NCBI RefSeq assembly: GCF_025244665.1
Contig: NZ_CP104205.1
Coordinates: forward strand, 1,671,001 to 1,735,000
Direction: 5' to 3'
Length of the DNA stretch: 64,000 nucleotides
Source: Maribacter litopenaei
Lineage (GTDB): Bacteria > Bacteroidota > Bacteroidia > Flavobacteriales > Flavobacteriaceae
Every line of letters begins with the position of its first letter. Position 1 is the first letter of the stretch. Below the pieces are notes generated by a model. The model was given only the letters and a program-made list of their open reading frames with translations, searched no databases and had not been told where the DNA came from. A program made the translations under genes and the position numbers. Shown here piece after piece: positions 46,692 to 64,000 of the stretch.

Positions 46692-46714
46692 TGTTGTGCG
46701 TTCGTATTTTATTT

Positions 46715-47296
46715 TCAAGAGGTTTCTTTCGTAATCCACTTTCCAATTGTCGGTGCTTTGTATGCTTTCATTTTTATAATCAACTCATCAATATTGTCGC
46801 TAATTAAAACCATATTTCTGTTTATTTCCTTCAAAAGTCCTTTTGTAACCATATCGTCTAAAAATGCAATCAGATTGTCATAAAATCCATTAATATTTAG
46901 AATTCCAATAGGTTTTTTATGAAGTCCTAATTGGCCCCAAGTCAGCATTTCAAAAAGTTCTTCTATAGTTCCAAAACCTCCGGGAAGAGCAATAACTCCA
47001 TCGCAGAGTTCATTCATTTTAGTTTTTCTCTCATGCATTGAGTCAACTAAAATCAATTCAGTTAATTCATTATGAGCAATTTCTTTTGATTTTAGAAAAT
47101 GGGGCAAAACTCCTATTACTCTTCCTGAATTTTTTAATGTCCCATTTGCAACTGCTCCCATTAGTCCAACATTCGCTCCACCGTAAACTAGCTCAATATT
47201 TTGAAGAGCTAATTTTTTTCCAAGCTCTTTAGCTTGAAGTTCAAATTCGTTATCAGTTCCAAAACTTGAACCGCAAAAAACTGTAATTCTATTCAT
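46715..47296 (-). CDS. LOG family protein (nucleotide 5'-monophosphate phosphoribohydrolase-like)
   Basis: This 193-residue Rossmann-fold enzyme has the family motif ALPGGFGTIEELFE (PGGxGTxxE) and GGANVGLMGAVANG. Relatives release the base from cytokinin ribotides or AMP-like nucleotides. Cassette boxes flank it: GTTGTGCGT (46692-46700) and ACGCACAAC (47320-47328), a perfect 9-bp inverted pair. Confidence 0.88.
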   Translation of the reverse strand: MNRITVFCGSSFGTDNEFELQAKELGKKLALQNIELVYGGANVGLMGAVANGTLKNSGRVIGVLPHFLKSKEIAHNELTELILVDSMHERKTKMNELCDGVIALPGGFGTIEELFEMLTWGQLGLHKKPIGILNINGFYDNLIAFLDDMVTKGLLKEINRNMVLISDNIDELIIKMKAYKAPTIGKWITKETS

Positions 47297-47319
47297 TAAA
47301 TTTTCGTTCTGATTATATG

Positions 47320-47459
47320 ACGCACAACGATCTCGGCTATGATTTCGTTGTGGAATTTCACGCAGTGAACATTCCGCCCGAAATCAAACCTTGGCTTGAA
47401 GTTAAGGATTTCCGATTAGGAAATCCTGCCACAATGAATTATAGCCGGTGTTGTAAGCA
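47320..47459 (-). repeat. attC-like site 2
   Basis: This 140-bp site has outer boxes ACGCACAAC and GTTGTAAGCA, which do not match each other. Inner arms TCGGCTATGATTTCGTTGTGG and CCACAATGAATTATAGCCGG are complementary. The right box pairs with TGCTTACAAC at 47964 across the next gene. Confidence 0.85.
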
Positions 47460-47463
47460 GTTT

Positions 47464-47928
47464 TTATTTAATTCGTTTTTTAATGAGTATTATTTGTCCG
47501 AGATGATAATATGAGTGTTCAATCATAGCGTCAATATTTCGGCAATAAGTCCCATATTGTTTATCTACAAAGTCCGACAATATTTTTTCTTCTGACATAT
47601 TTTCAACAAGTTCGATAAATTCATCTGCGTCAAGACAAAACTTACTCACTAAATTTTGCCAATCCTGTTCAGATTCTATTGGTGGGGAATCAAAACTATA
47701 TTTATCCCGAATATCAAGTGTTCCGCCTTTAAGAACGTTTGCAACTCCAGCTATATAGTAATCTATGTGAAAAGTCAAATCAGCAATTGTGTTGAAGTCA
47801 TCTATTTTTTGAGTAGCTTGTTTCCAATCAAGGTCAACTATTTGTTCCTTGAAATTTGTACCCAAAACCCATTTACCTTCTGTAAAAACTTCTTTCAGTC
47901 GGTCAGCTAAGTATTCCTTGAGTCTCAT
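47464..47928 (-). CDS. DinB superfamily (DUF1572-like) cassette protein
   Basis: This 154-residue protein has LTFHIDYYIAGV and EHSYYHLGQIILIKKRI, the first and last His regions of the DinB fold. Both cassette boxes (GTTGTAAGCA 47450-47459, TGCTTACAAC 47964-47973) match perfectly over 10 bp. A third DinB-type gene in the window, not close to the others. Confidence 0.78.
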   Translation of the reverse strand: MRLKEYLADRLKEVFTEGKWVLGTNFKEQIVDLDWKQATQKIDDFNTIADLTFHIDYYIAGVANVLKGGTLDIRDKYSFDSPPIESEQDWQNLVSKFCLDADEFIELVENMSEEKILSDFVDKQYGTYCRNIDAMIEHSYYHLGQIILIKKRIK

Positions 47929-47963
47929 TTTAGATAAGTAGCTTTTTTACGGTTTTATCAAAT

Positions 47964-48540
47964 TGCTTACAACGCCGCGCTATGTACGTCATCTGCGAAA
48001 GCAGTGGGCGGGTTGTAGCGTTGGTGGCTAATTTTATGGAAATATAGTGAAAACCTGTAACGATGATACGGTTATCTGTCCTGTTTGGGGGTATTGTGAA
48101 CCGCATCATCGTTTGTTGATAAGGCCACATGGTAGCCGTATATCGTGGTTTTCGCGGAATTGGGAATAATCCCGATAGCTATCGGGAGTTCGACCTACCG
48201 AGCGAAGCGAACACATGAATGCTTTAAAGAAAAATAAAATGAATAAACCACCTATTGCGTCCTGATATGTCGAGTAGGTAAGCCGAAGCGACTGTCTTTG
48301 CAAAATGTCCCTTATCCTACGGCCAAAGTACGCCGCAGGCGACCGAGTGCAGCGACCGATGAATTCATAAGAAAAAAAATAGAAATGACATAAATAATTC
48401 GGCACCGCGGTCATGTGTATGGTTCGTTGCGAACTTATCCAACGGAAAATGTCCGCCTGACCTTAAACATAATTGATTGCAACTAATCCCGTTTTAGGAA
48501 TCAGACAGTAACTAATTATACACCGCTTTGTTGTGTTTTC
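47964..48540 (-). repeat. attC-like site 3 with diverged structured insert
   Basis: The left box TGCTTACAAC is followed by GCCGCGCTATG and a diverged, rearranged copy of the 361-bp structured repeat, including AACGATGATACGGTT/AACCGCATCATCGTT and a CCCGATAGCTATCGGG palindrome (48171-48186). The plain site resumes near 48418 (GTGTATGGTTCGTTGCG ... ACTAATTATACACCG) and ends GTTGTGTTTTC. No convincing gene lies in the 618 bases. Confidence 0.75.
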
Positions 48541-48546
48541 GTTTAT

Positions 48547-49991: not shown

Positions 49992-50296
49992 AAGTACAAC
50001 GCCGCGATCTGTCCAGTAGGTAAGCCATAGCGGCGGTCTTTGCAAAGAGGTCTCTTATCCTACGGCCATTGTAATCTGGCATAGCGCGGCGATGATGTCG
50101 ACTGGCTTTTGGTGCGGAAATTGCGCGAGCAATACAACAAAAGTACACCGCAGGCGTATTCGAAATCATCGGTTTTGTGTATGATTAGTGGCGTGTTTAA
50201 GCACCTAATTTAGCAAATAAAAGCCTAATAGAAAATCTGATAGGATTTTCGTAAGCAAGCCTGAACTAGCCATTAATTATTCACGGTGTTGTGGTG
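49992..50296 (-). repeat. attC-like site with partial structured insert
   Basis: Left box AAGTACAAC, then a truncated copy of the structured repeat (GCGGTCTTTGCAAAGAGG..., CATAGCGCGGCGATGATGTCGACTGG... to about 50175). The plain site follows from TTTTGTGTATGATTAG to the right box GTTGTGGTG (50288-50296), which pairs across the CPBP gene. The CPBP stop codon lies inside the site. Confidence 0.75.
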
Positions 50297-51109
50297 TCGT
50301 TTGTCTTTTTTCCACCACAAGTAAACAAAAATACTAAACAATAAAGCCATAAATACCCAAGGCAATTGTAGAGATGCAAGAGATAAATTCTCCAATTCAA
50401 CATTTGATTGAAAAATCCCTGATGGGATTGCCTGATTCTCTTGTTCAGGTCTCAAGTCAAAAATACTAATCGTGATGAAATTAGCTCCTGTATGAATTCC
50501 TAATGCAGCACCCAATCTGTTTGTTTTAAAATATATTATACTAAAAAATATAGTGTGTAAAACTGGAATTAGAATAGTATATAAAAGTAATTCACCTGCA
50601 ACTTGATTGGAATAACTTTTAAGACCAACGAAAAACATCATTATAATAATTGCTGCATTGGCCCCAAAACTTTTTTCAAATGATTTTAAAGGGTAACCTC
50701 TTGTAAATAATTCTGTTCCTAAATCTGCAATAAAAATGAATAAGAGTCCATAAAGAATATTATATAGTGAAACATTTTGCCTTAACTCCCAAGAAAAATC
50801 TGCTATGTAAGATTGTAGTATAGAAACGATTGCCCATAAGACGATTCCAATTAGTAATCCGTAATAGAATTCCAAACGATTCTTGGATTTTAATGAAATG
50901 CCTAAATCGTGAAGCGTAATCTTGTCTGTTTTACAGAACCATTTTGTAACTAGCCAACTAGACAATGCAAATAGTGTAAACAGGATTAACATGGTTAAAT
51001 TATGGGGTAGCTGAAACGGTATGTAAAAAGCTATCAATCCCTTACGAAGAAAAAAATCTAGTATAGTCAAGATTATCAAGAATAAAATAGCTTTTAAAAA
51101 TGGTTTCAT
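50273..51109 (-). CDS. CPBP family intramembrane protease-like protein (variant motif)
   Basis: This 278-residue protein has eight or so membrane helices. The Abi/CPBP motif 1 reads GTELFTRGYPL, where the first Glu of EExxxR is Thr; motif 3 is present as HTGANF. It may be catalytically weakened. The last residues (HHNTVNN) and the stop are encoded within the attC-like site. Boxes GTTGTGGTG/CACCACAAC match over 9 bp. Confidence 0.8.
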   Translation of the reverse strand: MKPFLKAILFLIILTILDFFLRKGLIAFYIPFQLPHNLTMLILFTLFALSSWLVTKWFCKTDKITLHDLGISLKSKNRLEFYYGLLIGIVLWAIVSILQSYIADFSWELRQNVSLYNILYGLLFIFIADLGTELFTRGYPLKSFEKSFGANAAIIIMMFFVGLKSYSNQVAGELLLYTILIPVLHTIFFSIIYFKTNRLGAALGIHTGANFITISIFDLRPEQENQAIPSGIFQSNVELENLSLASLQLPWVFMALLFSIFVYLWWKKDKRHHNTVNN

Positions 51110-51145
51110 AAGTATTATTGACTTTGTAAATAACTTTTTTTAATG

Positions 51146-51268
51146 CACCACAACAGTCCGGGCGATGAGTAGTTGAGTGATTCAGCACCAACTTTTGCAA
51201 GTACACCACAAGCTGAAAATTCCGCAGGAATTTTCAGGATAAGCTTGTAATAGCAATTGTTAGTCACC
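51146..51268 (-). repeat. attC-like site 6
   Basis: Boxes CACCACAAC (left) and GTTAGTCACC (right). The central hairpin ACAAGCTGAAAATTCC/GGAATTTTCAGGATAAGCTTGT is strong, while the outer arms are more diverged than in other sites. Confidence 0.72.
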
Positions 51269-51310
51269 GTATTTTTTACATTTTTTTAAATGGCTTTTTA
51301 TCTGAAGTAG

Positions 51311-52366
51311 TCATTTTATATTGTTCCATAGCCTCTTCCGAGTAAGATCTGTTGGCATATTTTCAATGAATGTCATAACTGATGTAAATATGAACGGTAT
51401 GTTGCTTCTTGAAATAAAATCAGATTTTGTTGCAATATCATCTAATTGATCAGCATTCCATTTTTTTCTTATTTCGTTAGCACGCTCATATTTTTCCTTA
51501 TTCAAATTTACAAGCCATATTTTGTTATTAAGAGAATCCGGCAATAAGTGATGTCTATATTGCCAAGTTGAGTAAACTTCAAAATCTTTTTTATCCTTAT
51601 CATTTTGGTAATGGAGGTAAGAGATTGCCTGTTCAGGATCAAATCGTCCCTCATTTACTGCCTTGCAAAGAATTGGTTCAAGATCAATTATGTTTTTATC
51701 GCTGCTTCTTCTCTGAGATGTATGAACTAAAACCACATCATGATTTTGCCCTCTTAAGGATTTTCTAAAACCGAGCTCTATCTGAGAAGGGAAGCCAAGA
51801 GAATCAGTTATTGAAAGTATCCTGTTCATATTTATTATTCGATTAGCTTGAATAGTGTCATCATGAGTATCGTACATTGGTCTGAACAATTGATCTCTTT
51901 CCCAAATTGATTTGAATTCATTTCTTAATCTTGAGTCATATTCAGTCGTTCTTTTCTCTATAAAAGAATTCCAAAGGTTCTCATCTATATATGTGTTGAC
52001 AAAAATTGACTTTAGCAAACTTAAATCATCAGAATTATTTATAAGTTGTTGAAGATTTAAATTTCTTTCATCTAAATTATTAGAGAGGTGATTTGAAAGT
52101 GCGGCATTATAAACATCCGGACCAAAAGGTTTTTTGATTTCTTCAAATGCCAATGAGTAATATTTGGATGCTCTATCGAAATCACCATCACAAATTGCAA
52201 TTTCAGCTTTATTAGTTAGAATGTGATATTTAGTAATTGCTTCATTATTGTAGTTGCATTTCGTTAATTCAGTGATGGCAGAATTTTCAGACTTAATATT
52301 CGTCTCATTACGGTTTTTGCAACTTACTTGAATCGTCAGAATAATTATAATGATTGCAATTCTCAT
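51311..52366 (-). CDS. DUF6624-like lipoprotein
   Basis: A lipobox (TIQVSC) leads to a TPR-like helical region and a C-terminal part with WERDQLFRPMYD, HDVVLVHTSQ and LCKAVNEGRFDPEQAISYLHYQND, which recalls DUF6624. The family assignment is from pattern memory. Boxes GTTAGTCACC (51259-51268) and GGTGACTAAC (52379-52388) match over 10 bp. Confidence 0.65.
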   Translation of the reverse strand: MRIAIIIIILTIQVSCKNRNETNIKSENSAITELTKCNYNNEAITKYHILTNKAEIAICDGDFDRASKYYSLAFEEIKKPFGPDVYNAALSNHLSNNLDERNLNLQQLINNSDDLSLLKSIFVNTYIDENLWNSFIEKRTTEYDSRLRNEFKSIWERDQLFRPMYDTHDDTIQANRIINMNRILSITDSLGFPSQIELGFRKSLRGQNHDVVLVHTSQRRSSDKNIIDLEPILCKAVNEGRFDPEQAISYLHYQNDKDKKDFEVYSTWQYRHHLLPDSLNNKIWLVNLNKEKYERANEIRKKWNADQLDDIATKSDFISRSNIPFIFTSVMTFIENMPTDLTRKRLWNNIK

Positions 52367-52378
52367 TTTAAAATTTAT

Positions 52379-52536
52379 GGTGACTAACGGTTGGCATAAC
52401 CGAAGTTACGGGTTTATATGCATTAATTTTCGGTTTAGCACGGACGTTAGCAATTCCGAGTGGATTCAGTTTACCCTGAGCGAAGTCGAAGGGTAGTCGA
52501 ATCCGCCGTAATTGCGGTTATACATTGTTGTGGCTA
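52379..52536 (-). repeat. attC-like site 7 with palindrome insert
   Basis: Boxes GGTGACTAAC and GTTGTGGCTA. Inner arms and centre match the 59869 and 61455 sites (GACGTTAGCAATTCCGAGTGGATTC ... GAATCCGCCGTAATTGCGGTTATAC). It is longer, at 158 bp, because TACCCTGAGCGAAGTCGAAGGGTA (about 52473-52496) is inserted in the tip. Confidence 0.85.
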
Positions 52537-52537
52537 G

Positions 52538-53479
52538 TTATTTTTTAGTGATTTCTCTACCGATTCTTTCGTATTCCATTTTTACGTTTTGAGGCATTCC
52601 TCTAGCTCCAATAGATTCTGAAATATCAAATCCATTTGGCCAAAAGTACCCTAGCATTCCTATCACTTTTTCATCACTTTTGGCTAATTCGTAATAGTTA
52701 ATAGCGACTTGCTCCATTTGGCTCAATTCTATGCCTCCAAAGTCTCCGTGTGCCCAATTTATATAATGACTATCTAGAATAACCATAACCCTTTGACTTG
52801 GGTCAGATAGTTTTGATTTTAGCATATTCCAATCTTGTTGAAATTCAGTGTTTGTATTTGGGTTTTTTACAAAATAACGGTCAAAACCTACCCAATCAAT
52901 TGTTTCAGGAACCTGTAAGTTATTCAATGATGGATAAGCTTCAATTATCATCGTGGGAATGTTCGGAAATTCAGCTTGCAGTAGTTGAGCCACAGTATCC
53001 AATTCCAAGAAGGTTATTCCATTCCAAGTTGGTTCTTCGCCAATGTAAAATGTACCAACGTAATTGGTGTTTAAAATAGATTGATTTATAGTTTTAAATT
53101 CATTCCATCTTTCCTGATAATCCGTCCTTAAATCATAATTTGATTGTGAAGCACTGTTATTGTCTATTAACTCAAAGAACAATTCATTGAGGTGTAAAAT
53201 TGTTTTTAAATCCAAATCGGCAAAGGTTTGTGTCCTTTGAACAATATTGTCATTTGGATTCACAACTAAAATATCTGCTATGTTACTAAATTGATGGATT
53301 TCATCGGCATAATTGGTTTTGACTTCGGAATCGGTTGGGTCATCCCAATACGTGTCGACTATTGTAAATCCAAAATATTCGATGTGGGCGTTTGTGTTTT
53401 CAAATGTACTCGATTCGTCATCTTTTTTACAAGCGAATAGAGTACAGGAAATCAATATGTAAGATACAATGCTTTTCAT
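52538..53479 (-). CDS. Lipoprotein, probably a TIM-barrel glycosidase-like domain
   Basis: The lipobox (SCTLFACKKDD) leads a 313-residue protein with YVGTFYIGEEPTWNGITFLELD, TIDWVGFDRYF and VMVILDSHYINWAHGD, suggestive of a glycosidase-like barrel. No family could be named. Cassette boxes match over 10 bp (GTTGTGGCTA/TAGCCACAAC). Confidence 0.62.
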   Translation of the reverse strand: MKSIVSYILISCTLFACKKDDESSTFENTNAHIEYFGFTIVDTYWDDPTDSEVKTNYADEIHQFSNIADILVVNPNDNIVQRTQTFADLDLKTILHLNELFFELIDNNSASQSNYDLRTDYQERWNEFKTINQSILNTNYVGTFYIGEEPTWNGITFLELDTVAQLLQAEFPNIPTMIIEAYPSLNNLQVPETIDWVGFDRYFVKNPNTNTEFQQDWNMLKSKLSDPSQRVMVILDSHYINWAHGDFGGIELSQMEQVAINYYELAKSDEKVIGMLGYFWPNGFDISESIGARGMPQNVKMEYERIGREITKK

Positions 53480-53489
53480 TTCGTTTAAT

Positions 53490-53607
53490 TAGCCACAACG
53501 TCCCTGGCTATGCCTTCGTGGCCAAGCGTAGTCGTTTTTTGGTTTATTAGAAAAGTACGAAAATAAGCCAAGAGAAAAGCCATGAGGCATAGCCGTTGTT
53601 GTGCAAC
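53490..53607 (-). repeat. attC-like site 8
   Basis: 118 bp. Boxes TAGCCACAAC and GTTGTGCAAC. Inner arms GGCTATGCCT and AGGCATAGCC are perfect complements. Confidence 0.82.
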
Positions 53608-53612
53608 GTTTT

Positions 53613-54455
53613 TTAATACCATCTAATTTGATAAGGATATCGTTCATAAATCACATTATCCTCATTAATTGTATTTCCCTTTCTGCCATTTATTTCTCCT
53701 AATTTTTGTAATTCTTTTGCTTCTTCTGTTTTTCCAATCTTTCTTAAACAATCCGCCTTGAAAATTTGAACTTCGGAAAAGTCCGGATAGCTTTCTAAAG
53801 CTTTATCGAAAATTTCGATTGCACCTAGATAGTCTTTTTGTTCATATTTACTAATCCCGAAATAAAATAAGTCCAAATGATGTAGCCAATCTTCTCCTTT
53901 GTCCTTTAACTGAAATTCAAGGTCTTTTTTGAATATTTGTTCAGCTTTTTCAAATTCGTTTAATTGTAAGTAAGAAAGTCCAATGTAAAAATCATAGGTG
54001 TAGTCCATTACATATCCATTTCCAAACCTTTTTTTGTAGTCTTCGAAATCCGCAATTGATTCTCTATAGGTATTGGCGAATATACATTTGATAAAGGCTC
54101 GATAATCTTGCCATCGTTGACGGTCATATTTTACAGCATTATCAATAAATTCCATTCCAACTTCGTACTTCCCTTGCTTAAACATTGGCATTGCTTTTTG
54201 CTGCCATAAATAGGCGATAGTACTATCTTTTGCAAGTCCTTTATCGATTTCCTCTTGCCACTCTCTTGAGTAAAGTTCGTGTTTCCAAGCTCCGTTTTTT
54301 AGATGTTCATCTATAATCATGTCCTGCTTTTCTTTGTCAACTTTTAATTCGGTCAGTTTGTTTTCAGCTAAATCTTTATCAGATTTGCTTTTTTGTCCAC
54401 AAGAAAAAATTGTGGCAATTAATAAAAGCATCGATATTTTGAAGCTAATTCTCAA
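53613..54455 (-). CDS. TPR-repeat lipoprotein
   Basis: The lipobox (LLIATIFSCGQ) leads a 280-residue protein with tetratricopeptide helices (AYLWQQKAMPMFKQGKYEVGMEFIDNAVKYD; FYIGLSYLQLNEFEKAEQIFKKDLEF; YFGISKYEQKDYLGAIEIFDKALESYPD). It is probably periplasmic and protein-binding. Boxes GTTGTGCAAC (53598-53607) and GTTGCACAAC (54469-54478) match over 10 bp. Confidence 0.8.
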   Translation of the reverse strand: MRISFKISMLLLIATIFSCGQKSKSDKDLAENKLTELKVDKEKQDMIIDEHLKNGAWKHELYSREWQEEIDKGLAKDSTIAYLWQQKAMPMFKQGKYEVGMEFIDNAVKYDRQRWQDYRAFIKCIFANTYRESIADFEDYKKRFGNGYVMDYTYDFYIGLSYLQLNEFEKAEQIFKKDLEFQLKDKGEDWLHHLDLFYFGISKYEQKDYLGAIEIFDKALESYPDFSEVQIFKADCLRKIGKTEEAKELQKLGEINGRKGNTINEDNVIYERYPYQIRWY

Positions 54456-54468
54456 TTTTTAGTCAAAT

Positions 54469-55618: not shown

Positions 55619-55880
55619 AATCGCAATTTTCCATTTCAATGATGTGAAAGCCCACATTTTCAATAGATGAAATTATCTGTTCGGTAGCTTGTTCTATGTG
55701 GCAGAACCTGCATTCTTTTGCTGTTAGTTGCTCTGTGCCAAACGGCTTTGTTTTTAGATATTGCTTTCCAAAACCATAAATGATTTCTTCGTCAGTAACT
55801 TCATTTGTCACGAGGATGTCAAAATGCATCACTTTTCCGTCTACTCTCTGAACGTAGGTATCCCAAACTGAAACTTTCAT
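55617..55880 (-). CDS. DUF2024 family protein
   Basis: This 87-residue protein has MKVSVWDTYVQRVDGKVMHFDILV and ECRFCHIEQA, matching DUF2024. The function is unknown. It is one base from the upstream secreted-protein gene, so the two form an operon. Confidence 0.8.
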   Translation of the reverse strand: MKVSVWDTYVQRVDGKVMHFDILVTNEVTDEEIIYGFGKQYLKTKPFGTEQLTAKECRFCHIEQATEQIISSIENVGFHIIEMENCD

Positions 55881-55881
55881 T

Positions 55882-56607
55882 CTATTGTTTTTTTACCGTG
55901 TAGGGCAATGATAAATCGCCACTTGCTACGCTATACACTTCGTAAACGCCTAACATTGGCAAATTCTCATTGCTCGTGTTCACTTTCATAAATGCTGTAA
56001 CACCATCATAATTGAAATCTGATTGATTGTTCATTCTGTAATTTGGAATGATAACCTTTATGGTATTTCGAATCGTGGTTACAGGAAATCCTGGTGAGTC
56101 CATATACATTGGCATTCCTGGATTTGTTGGTGGTAACACGACCATTTTGTCAGCTTTTTTGAATTGCTTCACGGAAAGACCAACTGCAACTCTTTCATCT
56201 TTGGTCAACACTACCCAATGTGGATGCCAAACAAGCCCATCGTTGTCAAAAATCCTATCGTTGTTCTCATCCCAAAGCGGTGTGTCGTCAAAGTCAGGAT
56301 GTGAGGTGAGCGCAAGTGCAACAATTCCATCTGTTTCCCCAAATCCTACATCGGTTGGTTTTAAGCTGGTAGGAAATACATATCCCAAAACAGGCGCTCC
56401 ATCCAATTGTCCTGCTTTTGTAGGCGTGGTTTTTCCTGCCATTCCTTTTACATCAATTTCCCAAACGGTTATTCCCAAGTCAGATTTATTGCTTACGCGA
56501 ACTTCCTTTATGGCGAAGTCATCATTTTTGTACGAGCTTTCCTGTGCACACGATTTTGTTGTGCTTAAAAGCATAGTTGCTGAAAGTAATAATACTATTG
56601 ATTTCAT
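55882..56607 (-). CDS. Secreted protein of unknown function, MarR-cassette operon
   Basis: A signal peptide (KSIVLLLSATMLLSTTKSCAQ) leads a 241-residue beta-rich body with GITVWEIDVKGMAGKTTP, VGFGETDGIVALALTSHPDFDDTPLWDENNDRIFDNDGLVWHPHWVVL. No family was recognised. A double operator (56627-56660) lies directly upstream. Confidence 0.7.
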   Translation of the reverse strand: MKSIVLLLSATMLLSTTKSCAQESSYKNDDFAIKEVRVSNKSDLGITVWEIDVKGMAGKTTPTKAGQLDGAPVLGYVFPTSLKPTDVGFGETDGIVALALTSHPDFDDTPLWDENNDRIFDNDGLVWHPHWVVLTKDERVAVGLSVKQFKKADKMVVLPPTNPGMPMYMDSPGFPVTTIRNTIKVIIPNYRMNNQSDFNYDGVTAFMKVNTSNENLPMLGVYEVYSVASGDLSLPYTVKKQ

Positions 56608-56626
56608 ATTTTTAAGATTTTTAGAA

Positions 56627-56660
56627 GTTAGGATTCCATTTTTATATTAGGAATCCTAAC
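56627..56660. promoter_or_regulatory. Double MarR-type operator
   Basis: GTTAGGATTCC (56627-56637) and GGAATCCTAAC (56650-56660) are perfect inverted repeats 12 bases apart. The right one is itself part of the palindrome TTAGGAATCCTAA (56647-56659). It lies between the secreted-protein and thioredoxin-like genes. Confidence 0.7.
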
Positions 56661-56676
56661 TACAATGAATAAAAAA

Positions 56677-56910
56677 TTAACCTTTCACGTCCTCCATTGA
56701 TGCACCAAAGTTGATGTGCAATGTATGTCCATTAGCTGTTACCAATGCTGGAACAGACTTTACGCCTGCTTTTTCAGCCTCTGCGATTCTAGAACGGTCT
56801 TCCCCAATGTGTACGACTTCCACATTTTTCGCTCCGATTAAATTTACGATGTCCTGTTCTGCACTTACACATACTGGACAACCTGCGTGATAAAAAATTG
56901 ATTTACTCAT
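56677..56910 (-). CDS. Thioredoxin-like small protein (CPVC)
   Basis: This 77-residue protein has KSIFYHAGCPVCVSAEQDIVNLIG, with the CPVC redox pair, and KSVPALVTANG with a cis-Pro. It is probably a thiol-disulfide exchanger in the cytoplasm. Its promoter carries the operator. Confidence 0.82.
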   Translation of the reverse strand: MSKSIFYHAGCPVCVSAEQDIVNLIGAKNVEVVHIGEDRSRIAEAEKAGVKSVPALVTANGHTLHINFGASMEDVKG

Positions 56911-56949
56911 TTTCTGAATGATTTAAAATGTTATTGCATTATTGCTCCG

Positions 56950-56976
56950 CAAATATAGTAAGGATTCCTAACAATT
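56950..56976 (-). promoter_or_regulatory. Promoter and operator of the thioredoxin-like gene
   Basis: On the minus strand TTAGGAATCCTTA (56959-56971) directly precedes TATATTTG (56950-56957), a textbook -7 box. TTTG sequences lie upstream in the -33 region. A repressor bound here would block the promoter. Confidence 0.72.
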
Positions 56977-56986
56977 CAAATCAAAT

Positions 56987-57322
56987 TTAAGATTTTATGT
57001 AAACCCAACCTTGCTTTCCAGAATCGAAAGTGGTTTTAATTCTTTTATAATCAGACACTTCGTATGTATCTGCTTGATTTAATTCTTCGGTAGAAATTTC
57101 GTAAAGAGTGCCTTTTACTCTGTCGTTTGGGTCATTACTTGGCAAAGCGATTGGATGAAGCTCTTGTTCACTTTTCTCAAGAACACTACTGTCTGTAATT
57201 TGAAGCTGTTCTAATTTATATCCAAAAAGTATTTCGTCTGTTCCGTTTAGCTTTCGTCCAAATGATTCAACTTGTACTTTTTCGAGTTGTAAAGTTCCAT
57301 AGGAAAACAAGAGTTCTTTCAT
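56987..57322 (-). CDS. Gamma-glutamylcyclotransferase (AIG2-like) family protein
   Basis: MKELLFSYGTLQLEKVQVESFGR carries the YGTL substrate loop, with GYKLEQL and a late KGTLYEISTEELNQADTYEVSDYKR holding the catalytic Glu region. It probably cleaves gamma-glutamyl bonds, which would suit a thiol-related operon. Start 57322 is preferred to 57340. Confidence 0.82.
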   Translation of the reverse strand: MKELLFSYGTLQLEKVQVESFGRKLNGTDEILFGYKLEQLQITDSSVLEKSEQELHPIALPSNDPNDRVKGTLYEISTEELNQADTYEVSDYKRIKTTFDSGKQGWVYIKS

Positions 57323-57344
57323 TTGCGGGATGTGTTTCAAGCTT

Positions 57345-57838
57345 GTGGCTAACGCCGCGCTATGTGAAGTCCGGCGAATTTTATGGAAATATAGTGAAAA
57401 CCATCAACGATGATACGGTTAACTGACGGGTTTGGGGTATTGTGAACCGTGTCATCGTTCATCGATAAGGCCACATTGTGGCCGTCTATCGTGGTTTTCA
57501 CGGTATTGGGAATTAAATTTGTCGACCAGATTACATATAGCGTCCTGATATGTCGAGTAGATAAGCCGTAGCGGCGGTATTTGCAAAGAGGTCCCTTATC
57601 CTACGGCCAATGTAATCTGGCATAGCGCGGCGATGATGTCGACTGGCTTTTGGTGCGGTAATTGCGCCAGCAATGCGACAAAAGTACGCCGCAGGCGTAT
57701 TCGACATCATCGGTCTCGGCTATGAACAGTTGGGGATTTTTTGTCCTAACTTTTCGGTTTAGCACCGACCTTTGTTTTGTGTTTATTGTTTCGTTTTATC
57801 ACTTTCGCCCCAATTGTTTATAGCCAATGTTGTGTGCA
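57345..57838 (-). repeat. attC-like site 10 with complete 361-bp structured insert
   Basis: Left box GTGGCTAAC pairs with GTTAGCCAC at 54955 across the five-gene cassette. The structured repeat follows at once, then the ordinary site (TCGGCTATGAACAGTTGGGG ... CCCCAATTGTTTATAGCC) and right box GTTGTGTGCA. Confidence 0.85.
57351..57714. mobile_element. Structured non-coding repeat, copy A2
   Basis: 364 bases counted from the AAC of the box. It differs from copy A1 only at AATCTGGC versus AATCCGGC, judging by eye. The insertion point is the same relative to the box as in A1. Confidence 0.75.
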
Positions 57839-57850
57839 GTTTTTTTATCA

Positions 57851-58531
57851 TTAAAATCTTTCGTTTGAATCGTCCAATTTCCATATTCTGTCATTCAATT
57901 CAAATTCTCTGAACATTTCTTTGGCTTCTTCGATTGTCCATTTTGTCCATTTTGGATTTAAGTGATTTCCGTACCATTTTTTTGAGAAGTTCCAAATTTT
58001 CTCAATCGGCTGAATATCTCCTTTCGGAATGTTATGTTTTTTTGTCCACTGGTCAATTTGTTTTTCGTTTTCAAATATCAGCATATTGCTACAAGTGTAA
58101 ATCACATTGTCCCAAGCATTTTTCATTGGAATTGGGAAATGGATAAAATAGTTTTTTTCTTGAATTTCTCCGTTTACAATATTGATTTCTATTTGTTCGG
58201 TTTCCGCTCCGATAGTTGTCGTTATTTTTACGTCATCTTTTAGAAGTGCAGCAACTCCGAGTGAACACCAAGCACAATTTCCCCACCATTCTCCGTTTTT
58301 TGTTTTTAAGTAAAAATTTGTCGGTGCCAAAGAAAATGGATGGATTACCCAAATTTTTGGCTCGTTTGGATGAAGGACAACTCCGTGATAGTCTTGTAAG
58401 TCTTTTAATCCTTTAATGACTTCATTTTTGTCGGAATTTAAAGAATTTGCAAGTTCCTCGACACTCGGTGCAAATCCGTTGTCAATTATTCCTTTTATTA
58501 TTGAGTAATGAAGATTTGAATTTGTAATCAT
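57851..58531 (-). CDS. Alkylmercury lyase (MerB)-like protein
   Basis: This 226-residue protein has an N-terminal winged-helix-like part (SVEELANSLNSDKNEVIKGLKDLQDYHGVVL) and GEWWGNCAWCSLGVAALL, with a later VIYTCSNMLIFENEKQI that could supply the second Cys. The layout fits MerB-like proteins. True organomercurial lysis is unproven. Boxes match over 10 bp (GTTGTGTGCA/TGCACACAAC). Confidence 0.72.
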   Translation of the reverse strand: MITNSNLHYSIIKGIIDNGFAPSVEELANSLNSDKNEVIKGLKDLQDYHGVVLHPNEPKIWVIHPFSLAPTNFYLKTKNGEWWGNCAWCSLGVAALLKDDVKITTTIGAETEQIEINIVNGEIQEKNYFIHFPIPMKNAWDNVIYTCSNMLIFENEKQIDQWTKKHNIPKGDIQPIEKIWNFSKKWYGNHLNPKWTKWTIEEAKEMFREFELNDRIWKLDDSNERF

Positions 58532-58558
58532 TTAGTTTTCTTAACGTTCTGTTTAAAT

Positions 58559-58696
58559 TGCACACAACGGTTCGTGTATGATTAGTTGCGGACTTTTCAA
58601 ACGGAAAATGTCCGCCTGGTAATAAAGATAATTGATTGCAGGAAATTCACTTGTTGAATTTCCGACCGCAATTAATTATACACTGTGCTGGCAACT
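58559..58696 (-). repeat. attC-like site 11
   Basis: 138 bp. Boxes TGCACACAAC and GCTGGCAACT. Inner arms GTGTATGATTAGTTGCGG and CCGCAATTAATTATACAC. Same subfamily as the sites at 62270 and 63880. Confidence 0.88.
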
Positions 58697-58700
58697 GTTT

Positions 58701-59213
58701 TCATTTTTTTAGTTCGACTTTCAGAATTACGTTTTGTCCATAATTTTCAGTAATGTAGCCAATTCGGACTTCTTGTCCATTTTTGGTTATCGCACCACCG
58801 TGAGAAGCTGTATTATGAAATCCGTAATAGTTACCGTAATAATCTGAGTAGTCGAATGCTATTCCAGATACTGTAAAACTTTCCTGTTTATGCCCTGAAT
58901 ATGGCATAGGGTCAAAATTCTCTATTTTTCCTTCCACAACTTCATATTCATTATTCCGATATGACCGTTTTATTTTGTCAAATTTTTCTATCGAATTGGA
59001 AATTCTAACAAAAGAACTTACTGTGAAGACTATTCCCATTGTCAATCCTAGAATTAAAGAGAAATAGTCCTTCGTATTCTTGTCTTCTTTTTTATTCTTC
59101 TTGAAGGCATTTAAAAAAGTATAAATTCCACCAACTGCTAAAATGATAGGTACAATATGAGTCATATCCAACAGATTTTCACTTGTAACCTCGTAAACAG
59201 TTTCGTATTTCAT
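58701..59213 (-). CDS. Two-helix membrane protein, DUF3592-like
   Basis: Two hydrophobic helices (IVPIILAVGGIYTFLNAF, YFSLILGLTMGIVFTVSSFV) precede a small domain, EVVEGKIENFDPMPYSGHKQESFTVSGIAFDYSDYY, that recalls DUF3592. Boxes GCTGGCAACT and AGTTGCCAAC match at 9 of 10 positions. Confidence 0.62.
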   Translation of the reverse strand: MKYETVYEVTSENLLDMTHIVPIILAVGGIYTFLNAFKKNKKEDKNTKDYFSLILGLTMGIVFTVSSFVRISNSIEKFDKIKRSYRNNEYEVVEGKIENFDPMPYSGHKQESFTVSGIAFDYSDYYGNYYGFHNTASHGGAITKNGQEVRIGYITENYGQNVILKVELKK

Positions 59214-59219
59214 TCAAAT

Positions 59220-59360
59220 AGTTGCCAACGGTTTTGTGTATGATTTCGTTACGGAATGGCACGCGAGTGTCATTCCGACGTAGACCGAAAGATAGCGAAC
59301 ACAAATGGAATTTCCGATAGGAAATTCCGCCGTAATGAATTATACACGTTGTTGGCAATA
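59220..59360 (-). repeat. attC-like site 12
   Basis: 141 bp. Boxes AGTTGCCAAC and GTTGGCAATA. Inner arms GTGTATGATTTCGTTACGG and CCGTAATGAATTATACAC. A GGCACGCGAGTGTC hairpin is in the tip region. Confidence 0.88.
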
Positions 59361-59376
59361 GTGTTTTTATTTTCGG

Positions 59377-59868
59377 TCAAAATGGCCATCCATTTATCAT
59401 TTTATAATTCGTTTTTGGGTCAAACTCGATTCCGATTTCTTTTTTCGGATTCCACTGTTGGTTTATAAATTCTGCTGGGTTTTTAGTGATGTCAGTCCAA
59501 TTAGTATTCGGAAAAACATAAAGTTTCCAATGGTCAGAATCCCAAGTTCCGTACAGTTTTTCATTCGGCAAGTAGAGTAGGATATATTCGGGTCATAATG
59601 TTCGCATTGGTCAGTCAAATTGATTGCAGGAATTTCGTAATAAGATTTTCCGCTAACATTTCCCTCAATCCATACTTTTCCGAGTTCCAATTTGTCAAAG
59701 TCAATAATTCCGACAAAGTCTCGGTTCCACAGTTTTATGGTCGTAAATCAATTCCGATTTTGCTTTTAGAAATTCAGTTAAATCTTTGGGTAAATCCATA
59801 TTCTGTCCAAATATTGGGAAGGCAATTAAATAAACTATAATTATGATTCCTTTGTGCATTTCCGACAT
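59377..59868 (-). CDS. Secreted hypothetical protein, two frame breaks
   Basis: Reading pieces together: MHKGIIIIVYLIAFPIFGQN (signal peptide), LPKDLTEFLKAKSELIYDHK, then WNRDFVGIIDFDKLELGKVWIEGNVSGKSYYEIPAINLTDQCEHYDPNI, then PNEKLYGTWDSDHWKLYVFPNTNWTDITKNPAEFINQQWNP. Breaks lie near 59740 (extra A) and near 59570. No family was recognised. The ATG at 59868 touches the cassette box. Confidence 0.68.
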
Positions 59869-60007
59869 TATTGCCAACGGTCTCGTATAACCGTCAGTTA
59901 CGGATTTAAAGTTAATGATTTTCGGTTAAGCACCGACGTTAGCAATTCCGAGTGGATTCGGACGTAGTCGAATCCGCCGTAATTGCGGTTATACATTGTT
60001 GTGTGTA
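59869..60007 (-). repeat. attC-like site 13
   Basis: 139 bp. Boxes TATTGCCAAC (perfect partner of GTTGGCAATA at 59351) and GTTGTGTGTA. Inner arms CGTATAACCGTCAGTTACGG and CCGTAATTGCGGTTATAC. Same subfamily as the 52379 and 61455 sites. Confidence 0.9.
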
Positions 60008-60010
60008 GTC

Positions 60011-60793
60011 TTATTTTTTCCATTCTAACTCTTCTTCAATACTTATAATCTTAAACACTTGAAAAGCAAATTCCGAAAATCTTTTGATTAGTTTCTCAAA
60101 CTTCTTAAAGTCTAAATCAATTAATAATTCATTATCAGATAGTTTTTTAGAGTTAAACAGATAATTGAATATAGCGAAATGATGGTCGGATTTATTTATT
60201 TTGTTTAATTCAATGGTAGATTCATTATGAGTTATTGCGTGTCTTACTTCTGATAAGATTGTCCATAATTCCTTAAATTTTACATCAAGATTGTTGCTGA
60301 TACTAAATTTTTTAAATGTTTTTCCGCCAACTTTTTTTAATACATTGAATAATTTATCACCACCAGGCATTGTTTTTCTTGATATAATTGAATTTTGATT
60401 TTTGGGAAGTAAAGAAATTACATATTCTTTGATTTCATTATCTCGTTCGAGTTTGTCAAAAAGACAATCTTTCAAAAATCTTTCAAATGATTCATAAGAT
60501 TGAGCGTAAAGAAGACATCTTTGTCTTGATGATATATTTTTAATTTCTGTCTCGTAATTCTCTTTCGTAGTTTCGGCAAAAATCCCTGTATGAAAATTCA
60601 ATTCCCAACCATTATCGGTTGGGCCACTCCAATCGCTGATGACTAGGGCAGAGGCAAAATGCATTATTGCTTTATCCGAACTATATACCTCAATTTCTTT
60701 CCTAAATACTTTATCGATGCGTCCACTTATATGTCGATAATAAAGTAGTTTTTCAAAAAAGAGGTCAAGGTATTTTTTATATGGATTAGTCAT
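60011..60793 (-). CDS. HEPN-like helical protein
   Basis: This 260-residue, mostly helical protein has LLYAQSYESFERFLKDCLFDKL and, near residue 185, ILSEVRHAITHNES. RHAITH fits the Rx4-6H motif of HEPN ribonuclease domains, common in abortive-infection and toxin systems. The function is inferred from the motif only. Boxes GTTGTGTGTA and TACACACAAC match over 10 bp. Confidence 0.65.
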   Translation of the reverse strand: MTNPYKKYLDLFFEKLLYYRHISGRIDKVFRKEIEVYSSDKAIMHFASALVISDWSGPTDNGWELNFHTGIFAETTKENYETEIKNISSRQRCLLYAQSYESFERFLKDCLFDKLERDNEIKEYVISLLPKNQNSIISRKTMPGGDKLFNVLKKVGGKTFKKFSISNNLDVKFKELWTILSEVRHAITHNESTIELNKINKSDHHFAIFNYLFNSKKLSDNELLIDLDFKKFEKLIKRFSEFAFQVFKIISIEEELEWKK

Positions 60794-60802
60794 TTTTCAG
60801 AT

Positions 60803-60942
60803 TACACACAACGGTCTCGGCTATGATTTGTAGCGGCGTTGGAAATCGTAAGATTTCCAGCCGTGGCAAATCCAGCCGTTGATTGTTTGTAGGTTTCAAG
60901 TTAACGAATTGCAGCTATAAATTATAGCCAATGTTCTAAGCA
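60803..60942 (-). repeat. attC-like site 14
   Basis: 140 bp. Boxes TACACACAAC and GTTCTAAGCA. Inner arms TCGGCTATGATTTGTAGC and GCAGCTATAAATTATAGCC. The stop of the next gene (60936-60938) lies in the right box. Confidence 0.87.
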
Positions 60943-61452
60943 GTTTTTTCATTACTCATTGGAAATTCCTTTATTTTTCCGTCAATGAAAAGTCGTAATT
61001 CATGGTCAGAATGGAATAATTCAATATCAATTCCTTTTTCCGAAAGGAACCTAAGGACATGACCAAATTGGAAAGGGCCTTTATCGATTAAAACTTTAAT
61101 TTTTCTTTTTCTTTTCATGTCCGAGATAGATAGCCCTGCTGTCCCACTTAACTCTACCGTCACTCCAACCTATTTTTTTTATCTCTTCGAATTGGATATT
61201 TTCTTTCCAAACCTTTCCGATGAGATTTCTTTTAATCAATTCAATGTGGCTGTTTCTAATTATGATTCCATTGGCAAAATATACTCTCAGTATTATTAGA
61301 ACGAAAACCAGCAAAAAAATACCTCCCATGAATAATTTCACAGTCAAAGAGTCCGATGTAAATACAGTTACTAATGCGATAAGAATTGAAATGAGAATTC
61401 CAAGGGTACTAAGTTTAGGTTTTGTTTGGTATATGATATCTGTATTATTCAA
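60936..61452 (-). CDS. Two-helix membrane protein, one frame break
   Basis: The start is apparently TTG at 61452, two bases from the cassette box. Two helices (LGILISILIALVTVFTS, LFMGGIFLLVFVLIILRVYF) are followed by a PH-like segment, GKVWKENIQFEEIKKIGWSDGRVKWDSRAIYLGHEK. An A is missing from the K-codon run near 61105; repair continues KKKIKVLIDKGPFQFGHVLRFLSEKGIDIELF. Function unknown. Confidence 0.68.
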
Positions 61453-61454
61453 AT

Positions 61455-61594
61455 TGCTTAGAACGGTCTCGTATAACCGTCAGTTACGGGTTAAAGTACG
61501 CAAATTTTTCGGTTAAGCACAGACGTTAGCAATTCCGAGTGGATTCGGACGTAGTCGAATCCGCCGTAATTGCGGTTATACATTGTTGGCAGTA
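61455..61594 (-). repeat. attC-like site 15
   Basis: 140 bp. Boxes TGCTTAGAAC (perfect partner of GTTCTAAGCA at 60933) and GTTGGCAGTA. The body is close to the 59869 site: GTATAACCGTCAGTTACGG ... GACGTTAGCAATTCCGAGTGG. Confidence 0.9.
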
Positions 61595-62259
61595 GTATTT
61601 TTTATTATTTTCAGATTGTTAAAATCAGAGTTGTCAATTATAATATCAGCAATTTTTTCAGGCTCGTTTTCGTTTAAATACATTCTCGAAGATTTATGAT
61701 AACGTTTTTCGTATTTTTCTTTTGTTAAGTCAATTCCTCCGAGAGAGTTTTTATCTCTTTCAATACCTCTTTTCATTGCAATTTCAAAACTTGTTTTTAG
61801 ATAAATTTTCAAATCCCAATGAGTTCTATAATTTGGTTTAAACAGATATGCACCATCTGTTATTAAAACCGTATTATTCTCTAGTTCTATTGGTTCTAAA
61901 TTTAAATATTCGTCCGTTTCTAAATCATGCGTGGCACTTGTGTAATTTGGAAATTCTGATTGAGAAGATTTTAGTACTTTTTCCACAAATGCTATTTCGT
62001 CATAGGAATCTTCATAATATCCTTTCGCAGAATCACGACCTTGCTTATATCTTACTTCTTTGTTAAAATGAAATCCATCTATAGAAACTTGGATTGCTCT
62101 TATATTTTTTGAATTTAGATATTCAGTTAGTTTTTCAGCCATTACAGTTTTCCCAGTTCCTTCAATTCCGTTTATTGCAATTCGGACTGGTTTTCTTTTG
62201 TCTTTTTGAATGGATAAAATTCTGTTTGTTATAAGTTCAAATGTTTCTTTTTCGCTCAT
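61576..62259 (-). CDS. P-loop kinase, uridine/panthothenate-kinase-like
   Basis: The Walker A motif GIEGTGKT (residues 26-33) is followed by VSIDGFHFNKEVRYKQG, typical of the PRK/uridine kinase superfamily, and a Walker B-like VLITDGAYLF. Length 227. The last residues TANNV and the stop are encoded inside the attC-like site. Boxes GTTGGCAGTA and TACTGCCAAC match over 10 bp. The substrate is unknown. Confidence 0.82.
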   Translation of the reverse strand: MSEKETFELITNRILSIQKDKRKPVRIAINGIEGTGKTVMAEKLTEYLNSKNIRAIQVSIDGFHFNKEVRYKQGRDSAKGYYEDSYDEIAFVEKVLKSSQSEFPNYTSATHDLETDEYLNLEPIELENNTVLITDGAYLFKPNYRTHWDLKIYLKTSFEIAMKRGIERDKNSLGGIDLTKEKYEKRYHKSSRMYLNENEPEKIADIIIDNSDFNNLKIIKNTTANNV

Positions 62260-62269
62260 TGTTCTATAT

Positions 62270-62408
62270 TACTGCCAACGGATTGTGTATGATTAGTTGC
62301 GGACTTTTCCAACGGAAAATGTCCGCCCGACTTTAAAGATAATTGATTGCAAAGGATTTCCATTTTGGGAAATCCCCCCGCAATTAATTATACACCGTGT
62401 TAGGCAAC
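62270..62408 (-). repeat. attC-like site 16
   Basis: 139 bp. Boxes TACTGCCAAC and GTTAGGCAAC. On the gene strand the 3' box begins GTTGGCA and the 5' one ends GCCTAAC, the latter an exact RYYYAAC. Inner arms GTGTATGATTAGTTGCGG and CCGCAATTAATTATACAC. Confidence 0.9.
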
Positions 62409-62412
62409 GTAT

Positions 62413-63149
62413 TTACTTCAATAAATTCAGTTCCGTACCGGTAAGAAATTCAATTGCTTTAACTGCTGCTTCTCTTGTTAAAATACCCCCTAAGGCTAAG
62501 TCCACAAACTTGCCTTTAATGATTTCACTCCAATTCTTTTTATTCAGTTTTTTAGTCAAATCCTTTAGTTCCTCAATTTCATTGAAAATTATCTCCTGTC
62601 CAAATCCTTGTTTAATTAGCATTTTCTCAAGGTTATTTAATTTTTCAAACACGGCGTCTTGACTTTTGTAAGAAAAATAATCTGATTCACTTTTAGTTTG
62701 GCTTTCAGATAGATACCAATCAAATAGTTCTTTAAATGGTTTCAAGAAGTAGAAATTGAAACCGTCCTGCTGTTCATGATAATTATGTCCTCTGCTGTAC
62801 CATTTCCATGACAAATCAATGTAATGTGCAGAAACTTTTCGCTGTTCTTTAAATTTTTTATTTATCAGAAAGTACCCAAAAGCACCTTGTAAATCTGGTG
62901 TAATTAAACTGTCAATAATATCACGTTTGGTTCTTTCAGGAGATTGGTCATTTAATGGTTCCAATTGATGATATAAATCAGAATATTCCTCGGTTATTCT
63001 TTCCGAACTCGTCTAGAAATGTCCTGACTAATTAAAAAATTCATCAGCTGTGTCAACCTAGTTTTAACATCATTGTGCTGAGCGTATTCGACATCCAAAA
63101 AATAATCATGTGTTTTGGATTCTAATTCAGCAATATTAAGTTGTCTCAT
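62413..63149 (-). CDS. Hypothetical helical protein, one frame break
   Basis: From ATG 63149: RQLNIAELESKTHDYFLDVEYAQHNDVKTRLTQLMNFLISQDISRR. The frame breaks at 63003-63006 (CCGA for CCAGA); repair gives VLERITEEYSDLYHQLEPLNDQSPERTKRDIID and the remaining 180 residues. No family was recognised. It shares a cassette with the HEPN-like gene upstream, about 70 bases apart. Confidence 0.68.
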
Positions 63150-63216
63150 AACTTCGCAGCAAATTGTCTATAATTTTATTTAAAATGGTTTAGATTGACT
63201 ATGCAGGCTAAATTCT

Positions 63217-63867
63217 TTATTTGTTACTCTCGGCACCTGGTATTTTTAAGTTATTCATAATCATTACTGCCATTTCTTTCTCTGAAAAAGTGTTAAAAAA
63301 CCCATTATATGCTCTTTGACCACATTTTTGTATTTTGCTTTCAACTTCCTTAATTAAAAATTTAACAAGAGATTCCGTTTTTTCGAGTTTTTTGTCATTA
63401 AATGAAATTATTTTGGACTGTCTATACCTAATTTGAGACTGACCATTGTCACCTTTTGGAATGGCTAAAAAAGCTATTCCAATTTCCCCTAATGTGTTTC
63501 CCCGATGAGCTATAAAATCATGCCTCAACGAAATCAAGTATTCATGAATTTTTCTATTCTTCTTTTTTTTACTAAACACTTGATTTGGTTCTAACTTTGG
63601 TCTTTTGGTTTTTGTCGAATCAGTAAAACACTTACCATATAAAGCTATCAAGGCGTAGGTCAAGGAAGACTTAATGTAATGGTTGGCAGGATTTGTTTTA
63701 AGAATCTTAATATATTCCAGCATTAGTCTTAAATCCTCTCGAATTGAGCAATAGGTGCTAAACTGTTTTGACATAAACCCAGGTACCGCAACAACATGAT
63801 TTTCTTCCCCATATTCTTGGATTGCTTTGGCTATTAGTTTAAAATATCTCTTTTGCTTTTTATTCAT
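63217..63867 (-). CDS. HEPN-like protein (second)
   Basis: This 216-residue helical protein has YLISLRHDFIAHRGNTLGEIGIAFLAI near residue 115. RHDFIAH fits Rx4-6H as in HEPN-type RNases or HEPN-like AbiV-type proteins. A basic stretch KTKRPKLEPNQVFSKKKKNRK precedes it. The cassette boxes GTTAGGCAAC (62399-62408) and GTTGCCTAAC (63880-63889) enclose this gene and the next. Confidence 0.65.
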   Translation of the reverse strand: MNKKQKRYFKLIAKAIQEYGEENHVVAVPGFMSKQFSTYCSIREDLRLMLEYIKILKTNPANHYIKSSLTYALIALYGKCFTDSTKTKRPKLEPNQVFSKKKKNRKIHEYLISLRHDFIAHRGNTLGEIGIAFLAIPKGDNGQSQIRYRQSKIISFNDKKLEKTESLVKFLIKEVESKIQKCGQRAYNGFFNTFSEKEMAVMIMNNLKIPGAESNK

Positions 63868-63879
63868 GTAATCACATAT

Positions 63880-64000
63880 GTTGCCTAACGATCCGTGTAT
63901 GATTAGTTGCGGACTTTTCCAACGGAAAATGTCCGCCTGACCTTAAAGATAGTTAATTGCAAGGATTTCCAATTTGGGAAATCCGACCGCAATTAATTAT
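63880..64000 (-). repeat. attC-like site 17, cut by the window end
   Basis: Left box GTTGCCTAAC, then CGTGTATGATTAGTTGCGG and the central AATGTCCGCCTGACCTTAAAGATA. The right arm starts CCGCAATTAATTAT at the window end. The array therefore continues to the right. Confidence 0.88.

Follow-up and report, generated by a model that had tools for sequence, protein, structure and literature searches.

The right-hand part of a 64,000-nucleotide stretch of the Maribacter litopenaei genome (the window; contig 1, positions 1671001-1735000, of a 3.86-Mb genome held in one contig) is most probably the cassette array of an integron-like system that has an integrase without the insertion of IntI (I2) and that likely works as integrons do. 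Judging from sequence comparison, we put the probability of this reading at roughly 0.87. From 46692 to 64000, the array genes all lie on the minus strand, read leftwards and alternate with palindromes, as a sequence-only reading of this DNA had described from 46.7 kb to the window end. The array extends 7.9 kb beyond the window, up to window-equivalent position 71889. The sequence-only reading had called the region integron-like and was right in kind; that the integrase is no IntI and that the sites are without the classical extrahelical base was not foreseen. It had also counted twelve cassettes with perfectly complementary boxes and one with a 9/10 match. The latter stands, and the perfect matches, over 9-10 bp, number 13, which brings the window cassettes with complementary boxes to 14.

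The palindromic sites share one anatomy: AT-N7-AAC on the left, a spacer of 5-6 nt, a long stem, a spacer of 2-3 nt, and GTT-N7-GT on the right. GTT, AAC and the outer AT and GT are nearly constant; only the N7 is private to each gene, and it is complementary across the gene. These attC-like sites carry the AAC/GTT ends and the R''/L''/L'/R' boxes by which integron sites are recognized. A plain count of box pairs lying 150-3500 bp apart in the 44-74.5 kb region of the extended window gave 21 pairs of 10 bp, whereas 60 first-order Markov sequences averaged 4.8 and never exceeded 10. At 9 bp the count was 31, compared with an average of 17.3 and at most 27 in those sequences. Because this last excess over shuffles is weak, we turned to a test of neighboring sites, in which sites are located by covariance model and pairs are left out if they are more than 4 kb apart, come from overlapping matches or have no AAC/GTT at the expected place. 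The N7 matched across the gene at 7/7 in 90 of 118 testable neighboring pairs and at 6/7 in 16 more. For the window array the figures are 13/14 and 1/14; for the other arrays of the same genome and of genus and family relatives, 49 and 9 of 64 pairs; and for the named integrase loci, 28 and 6 of 40. Random box pairs reach 7/7 in 1.0-1.3% of cases, or 5.8% inside the small home array. The two boxes inside one site match at 7/7 in 0/16 sites of this array, and in 4/83 and 3/63 sites of the other two sets. The earlier claims that boxes pair across genes and not within a palindrome thus both hold, and the former extends to other arrays of the same repeats.

Formally, the boxes are inverted repeats flanking each gene, and they might serve gene inversion (phase variation) instead of cassette exchange; a plus-strand open reading frame (ORF) is indeed found in two cassettes outside the window, one of them the cassette at the integrase end. 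However, 18/18 scanned array genes of the window are on the minus strand, and cassettes change neighbors and genomes (see below), which leaves inversion the least credible of the explanations we weighed.

R1, the covariance model built from 16 sites, was run over the whole genome and matched 64 places at E <=1, reverse-strand echoes included. Fifty-three of these lie in three arrays, each bordered at the corresponding end by a member of a single recombinase family: array A, the window array, with IntA; array B (1592.8-1600.5 kb) with IntB, 38% identical to IntA; and array C (907.7-940.3 kb) with IntC, 40% identical to IntA. In Rfam no suitable family turned up for the sites: at gathering thresholds the window had 0 matches, with two below threshold in 46-64 kb (E 0.32 and 0.71). 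Six single in-array sites, folded without their boxes, gave mixed minimum-energy folds, and one site (L001 9409-9515) folded no better than shuffles; structure was therefore tested by covariation. Within the stems 95% of cells are paired, versus 76% in shuffles, and double-change cells number 59 versus 18. With one and the same finder, an extrahelical base (bulge) within the first 9 pairs was seen in 2/74 sites from 20 selected new-type loci, versus 64/94 sites from 28 fetched classical loci. Beyond 11 pairs an extra base occurs in 16/85 stems, on the other arm. The stems have a strand preference of another sort: in the first 14 pairs of 97 distinct sites there are 189 G.T wobbles on the bottom strand versus 17 on the top, at preferred positions. 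This count scores the strands symmetrically and replaces a scoring that favored the bottom strand; repeated stem arms were dropped from both the 85-stem and the wobble counts. The spacers are asymmetric as well, mostly 5-6 nt versus 2-3 nt on the folded strand.

A recombinase to the right of 64 kb had been set beforehand as a test, and one is present there: a 355-amino-acid (aa) tyrosine recombinase, IntA, encoded on the plus strand at window-equivalent 72040-73107 (L001 10040-11107), in the position of intI. It diverges from the minus-strand cassettes, with a conserved stretch between. Its KKDR and HxLRH motifs are 58 residues apart; the spacing is 57-59 residues in 39/39 rows of the family and 100 in 12/12 IntI, and by alignment this is an integrase family without the whole of I2. 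IntA scores 193.6 bits against the IntI model TIGR02249 (cut-off 265), and its best NCBIfam score is to a XerA-type model. The genome has no TIGR02249 match above the cut-off; its best scores, all under it, are those of IntA, IntB and IntC. The region of IntA alignable to Xer and IntI is preceded by some 80 N-terminal residues.

About 150 bp before the integrase start, variable cassette sequence switches abruptly to a conserved motif. In an alignment of 14 of the 33 IntA-like loci described below, the motif reads AACAC.TAWATA in 10, and close variants occur in the rest (AACTCGTATATA in L018 and L021; ATCAC.TAAATA in L046 and L053). By its place and conservation, this junction is a candidate attI-like site beside the integrase gene, as an integron would have. 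Arrays B and C have their last box immediately past the integrase stop, and other sequences follow it. In the consensus of the 14 loci, an inverted repeat, TTTTGTATATCA..TGATATACAAAA, stands just before the integrase start (in L001 before 10040); it is possibly an operator.

When public genomes were searched with IntA, IntB and IntC, 455 places were confirmed, the best 80 of which were used for locus counts and divided by identity and listing order into 33 IntA-like and 47 IntB/C-like loci, a split of our own. From the site matches at integrase loci 4/98 were dropped (three truncated at contig ends, one overlapping on the reverse strand), and from the other set of site matches 4/142 (partial, over-long or reverse-strand overlaps). 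At IntA-like loci, 68/68 counted matches are upstream and on the plus strand; at IntB/C-like loci, 26/26 are downstream and on the minus strand. Cassettes in both types are, as far as these sequences go, read away from the integrase, and it is the integrase's own direction that differs. Counted matches occur in 19/33 IntA-like and 11/47 IntB/C-like loci, and in 16/16 and 10/16, respectively, where at least 2 kb is available on the array side. Assemblies break on that side: contig ends within 10 kb are upstream in 25/33 IntA-like loci and downstream in 5, and downstream in 38/47 IntB/C-like loci and upstream in 17. A finder independent of R1 recovered cross-gene 7/7 pairs in 11/80 loci, only on the expected side and strand. 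Among 149 genomes of the class, 80 have R1 matches and 83 the integrase profile (E <=1e-60); both occur in 62, sites alone in 18, the integrase alone in 21 and neither in 48 (Fisher p 1e-8).

Some members of the wider family merit separate mention. Locus L156, on a 66-kb Chryseobacterium plasmid (NZ_CP041688.1), encodes a 40.7% identical integrase with five attC-like matches downstream, among which are an IS110-family transposase and a group II intron; judged by gene content, the system is here carried on a plasmid. G007 contig C1 holds eight equal-scoring copies (e.g., 3447931-3448773) of a 298-aa tyrosine recombinase with 34% identity to IntA, and several of them sit in array regions of that genome. 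Relatives without I2 also occur in Alkaliphilus (L082) and in a Xenococcus metagenome-assembled genome (L078). The Alkaliphilus locus, one of the 11 recovered by the R1-independent finder, has one cross-gene box pair and no R1 matches, so the system may reach other phyla.

Movement of cassettes was followed by comparing four window cassettes with homologues at five loci, in other species or in the genome's own arrays. In two of them both ends of the homology are at the boxes, within 2 bp: cassette 51259-52388 is 95% identical to a homologue in G010 over 51257-52388, and 50288-51154 is 95% identical to one in G030 over 50287-51154. In the other two the right end falls within 3 bp of the box, and the left homology reaches 18-130 bp into the palindrome. 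Cassette 47450-47973 has a 90% homologue in G023 that covers 47432-47974, which is 18 bp into the left palindrome and up to the box on the right. Cassette 59351-59878 has copies in the genome's own array B (L098; 93.5% identical where aligned, reaching the box on the right and at most 25 bp into the palindrome on the left) and array C (L096; 94.7% over the unit, with the palindrome included at 78%). Breakpoints at the boxes, which the sequence-only reading had expected, were thus found, and the gain and loss of genes between species appears to have its breakpoints at G^TT, as in integrons.

The palindromes were compared in 14 distinct homologous unit pairs, against a background identity with a median of 50-55 and a 95th percentile of 75. 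Six pairs, 88-100% identical, have 3' palindromes that are 98-100% identical and 5' palindromes at background (30-66%). In one further pair both palindromes are 100% identical, and this pair adjoins another duplicated cassette. The N7 is identical in 13/14 pairs, the exception being a pair of 73% identity. Retention of the 3' palindrome in six pairs is what integrons predict, since their cassette is a gene with its 3' site; seven older pairs, described below, point the other way. That box-to-box units move without a palindrome was considered as a general rule and rejected, given the six pairs in which only the 3' palindrome has been retained.

These comparisons also bear on whether the palindromes are repeats like miniature inverted-repeat transposable elements (MITEs) or repetitive extragenic palindromes (REPs), moved by a transposase with the genes as bystanders. 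The many similar palindromes, some with a further repeat of ~360-380 bp inserted, would suit that idea, which calls for constant termini and for mobility that is independent of the genes. Yet each gene has boxes of its own, which complement one another across the gene and not across the palindrome; homology between genomes spans the gene and ends at the boxes in two cassettes, with palindromes that differ; and the end and orientation of the tyrosine recombinase are fixed. The idea is already contradicted by these findings, and we regard it as very improbable.

Taken as an integron-like system, the array would work by single-strand recombination, with the integrase cutting folded palindromic sites at G^TT on a single strand; each gene would move together with its 3' palindrome. 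In a circular cassette, GTT-N7-GT would pair with the AT-N7-AAC beside the palindrome to give one hairpin with the private box as its outer arm. The folded strand would be the cassette bottom strand, which is the plus strand of the window; the integrase would cut it at AA^C and join it to attI, and replication would resolve the junction. Cassettes would be lost by recombination between sites. In the absence of both I2 and an extrahelical base, the strand would be chosen by means of the asymmetric spacers (mostly 5-6 versus 2-3 nt) and of the conserved G.T pairs found only on the bottom strand. Because integration would split the private box, in-array sites would be left with mismatched arms, and these may, we speculate, favor capture over excision.

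A different mechanism would have the integrase recombine the attC-like sites as double-stranded DNA, in the manner of Xer or phage integrases, with the palindrome no more than inverted arms. It would fit the missing I2, the XerA-type model as best NCBIfam score, and stems that look like duplex DNA, their first 9-11 pairs being free of extrahelical bases. Against it, neither the strand-biased G.T pairs (189 versus 17, at preferred positions) nor the kept complementarity of boxes at opposite ends of a gene has an evident role in duplex recombination. We consider a duplex-only system unlikely, though it is the strongest of the competitors.

Several observations weigh against the integron-like reading. 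Twelve of the 118 neighboring pairs match at <=5/7. The N7 boxes of in-array sites are mostly unpaired, so that excision between sites would need partly unpaired arms. No site match was seen in six of the 16 IntB/C-like loci whose array side offers 2 kb or more of sequence, and in the class 21/83 integrase-bearing genomes are without site matches and 18/80 site-bearing genomes without the integrase; the integrase profile may include some recombinases unconnected to arrays. Of the two 95% homologues, that in G030 has a different palindrome and that in G010 has no site match. Finally, the link between gene and palindrome is lost in seven older unit pairs (68-95% identical, two of which share a member): the 3' palindromes are 55-64% identical in six and 78% in one, which would mean that palindromes are exchanged or diverge over time.

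The window cassettes, all on the minus strand, are given here by their box pair (GTT left, AAC right), and the sites, all on the plus strand, with their R1 scores. Left of the leftmost cassette lies a partial attC-like site, terminal, degenerate and 65 bp long (46443..46507, 26.6 bits). The first cassette (46693..47328; a Lysine_decarbox gene, PF03641) has a 9-bp box match and no full palindrome match on its left side. The site at 47317..47461 (118 bits) separates it from cassette 47450..47973, which has no Pfam match. The stretch 47974-50287, in which the 10-bp/9-bp pair scan detected no complementary box pair, seems to be one or two decayed cassettes; sites lie at 48397..48536 (56.6 bits), beside a degenerate insert, and at 50158..50300 (49.4 bits), with an insert on its left. 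There follow cassette 50288..51154 with an Rce1-like gene (PF02517), the site 51143..51270 (55.0 bits), cassette 51259..52388 without a Pfam match, the site 52377..52538 (98.9 bits), cassette 52527..53499, also without a Pfam match, the site 53488..53609 (73.1 bits) and cassette 53598..54478, which encodes a TPR protein. The next site (54825..54966, 75.1 bits) has its AAC box (54478) split from the stem by an insert of ~358 bp (54479-54836), and the same insert lies to the left of the site at 57699..57840 (80.2 bits). Between these two sites is a multi-gene cassette (54955..57353; MarR family, GGACT and others). Cassette 57829..58568 carries a gene with an alkylmercury lyase domain (MerB-like, PF03243) and is followed by a site in which GTT is altered to GCT (58557..58698, 110.9 bits). 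Cassette 58687..59229, without a Pfam match, is the one with the 9/10 box match. The remainder are the site 59218..59362 (117.4 bits), cassette 59351..59878 with its copies in arrays B and C, the site 59867..60009 (116.7 bits), cassette 59998..60812 without a Pfam match, the site 60801..60944 (90.7 bits), cassette 60933..61464, whose scanned 75-aa ORF has no Pfam match, the site 61453..61596 (115.1 bits), cassette 61585..62279 with a uridine kinase family gene (PF00485), the site 62268..62410 (118.9 bits), cassette 62399..63889 with two ORFs and no Pfam match, and a site cut by the window end (63878..64000; complete as L001 1878-2019, 119.3 bits). The cargo is varied: 12/20 scanned proteins have no Pfam match, and those with one include Rce1-like, MerB-like, uridine kinase, MarR, TPR and SnoaL-like proteins.

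Five palindromes of the array contain long inserts. A nested palindromic repeat of ~360-380 bp stands directly after the AAC box of attC-like sites, as at 54479-54836, and related repeats follow the AAC at 47974 and 57354 or lie near 49999 and near 2505 in L001; further matches are found in the genome's own array B and in G030. This repeat may be a non-autonomous element that targets attC-like sites.

In many respects, the system resembles classical integrons: an attI-like site and an integrase at one array end, with the integrase divergent and attI between in array A; cassettes mostly in one orientation; AAC/GTT boxes; complementary boxes split by the gene; folded-strand spacers that in both systems mostly measure 5-6 and 2-3 nt; and a 3' palindrome that travels with the gene in recent copies. 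Classical attC sites are conserved in sequence only at AAC and GTT and are 57-142 nt long, and in most classical cassettes self-pairing reaches 9-11 nt, according to the account in PMC2727003; on that account, long private boxes are not new. The same source has extrahelical bases direct strand choice in classical attC. What is new here is the absence of the L-box extrahelical base together with the absence of I2. The system departs from an integron in the strict, IntI-type sense in that the integrase lacks the insertion (58 versus 100 residues) and falls below the TIGR02249 cut-off and the sites lack the L-box extrahelical base. In one of the two types, moreover, the integrase is co-directional with the cassettes, unlike in classical integrons. 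Beside 12 classical IntI genes, with flanks of <=1.5 kb, R1 gave one match only, at 15.4 bits. The family also differs from XerA/C/D/H: there are three copies in the genome, tied to cassette arrays, they carry the ~80-residue N-terminal stretch, and the family is separate from the Xer rows on trees.

Trees were drawn from 56 rows, 52 in a quick tree and 43 in a careful one. IntI falls in a polytomy in the quick tree. In the careful tree it forms one clade on a long branch, nested among rows without I2 and beside Delongbacteria, Cloacimonas and Armatimonadetes rows (supports 95/92 and 96/92). The three contigs behind rows of these groups (L075, L080, L081) stop less than 0.5 kb from the integrase, on the side where an array would be expected. 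Rows without I2 were kept together in 0/200 bootstrap trees; constraining them to one clade was not rejected (approximately unbiased test, p-AU 0.098), and the branches of IntI (2.35) and of the Xer outgroup (2.09) are long, so we make no claim of paraphyly. Our reading of these alignments is an integron lineage without I2 that would be either sister to IntI or ancestral to it. IntI above the cut-off was found in 84/296 sampled genomes of the phylum, 1 of the 84 belonging to this class. Smyshlyaev et al. 2021 (PMC8138268) describe a subgroup of integron-like simple tyrosine recombinases in which conservation of the CAT insertion is incomplete, and I2-less integrases may therefore be among its members. 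The passages of that paper on the subgroup call the insertion essential for integron function and describe no arrays or sites for insertion-less members. We found no description of I2-less integrons in our searches of the open-access literature.

An earlier survey, by the selection it reports, chose intI genes by the IntI domain itself (PMC2426708), and an I2-less family would be passed over in this way. The IntegronFinder 2.0 paper lists, in its account of these phyla, one complete integron in Bacteroidetes proper (Salinibacter ruber), plus Chlorobi and Ignavibacteriae (PMC9024848). The counts above (integrase in 83/149 and site matches in 80/149 genomes) suggest that integrons of the design found here are common in the class. 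I2 is held to have made single-strand recombination possible (PMC4792948, PMC7790495). A chicken-and-egg paradox is raised by Escudero et al. 2016 (PMC4792948): by what route could I2 be selected ahead of attC sites, or attC sites ahead of I2? The lack of intermediates is mentioned in the 2020 paper of Escudero (PMC7790495). Here, attC-like arrays occur with an I2-less integrase, and the feature read by I2 is absent from the sites, a combination that makes the order of events in integron evolution testable. We suggest, tentatively and at somewhat less than even odds, that this is an older integron design, with an I2-less integrase and attC without an extrahelical base, and that IntI arose within the family by gaining I2 and the base. 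If so, integron evolution would have its missing intermediate, and the Bacteroidia would hold an integron lineage that is invisible to IntI-based surveys and ranks among the commonest integron types. The system is likely a second, simpler kind of integron, and it could show how gene-collecting systems evolved.

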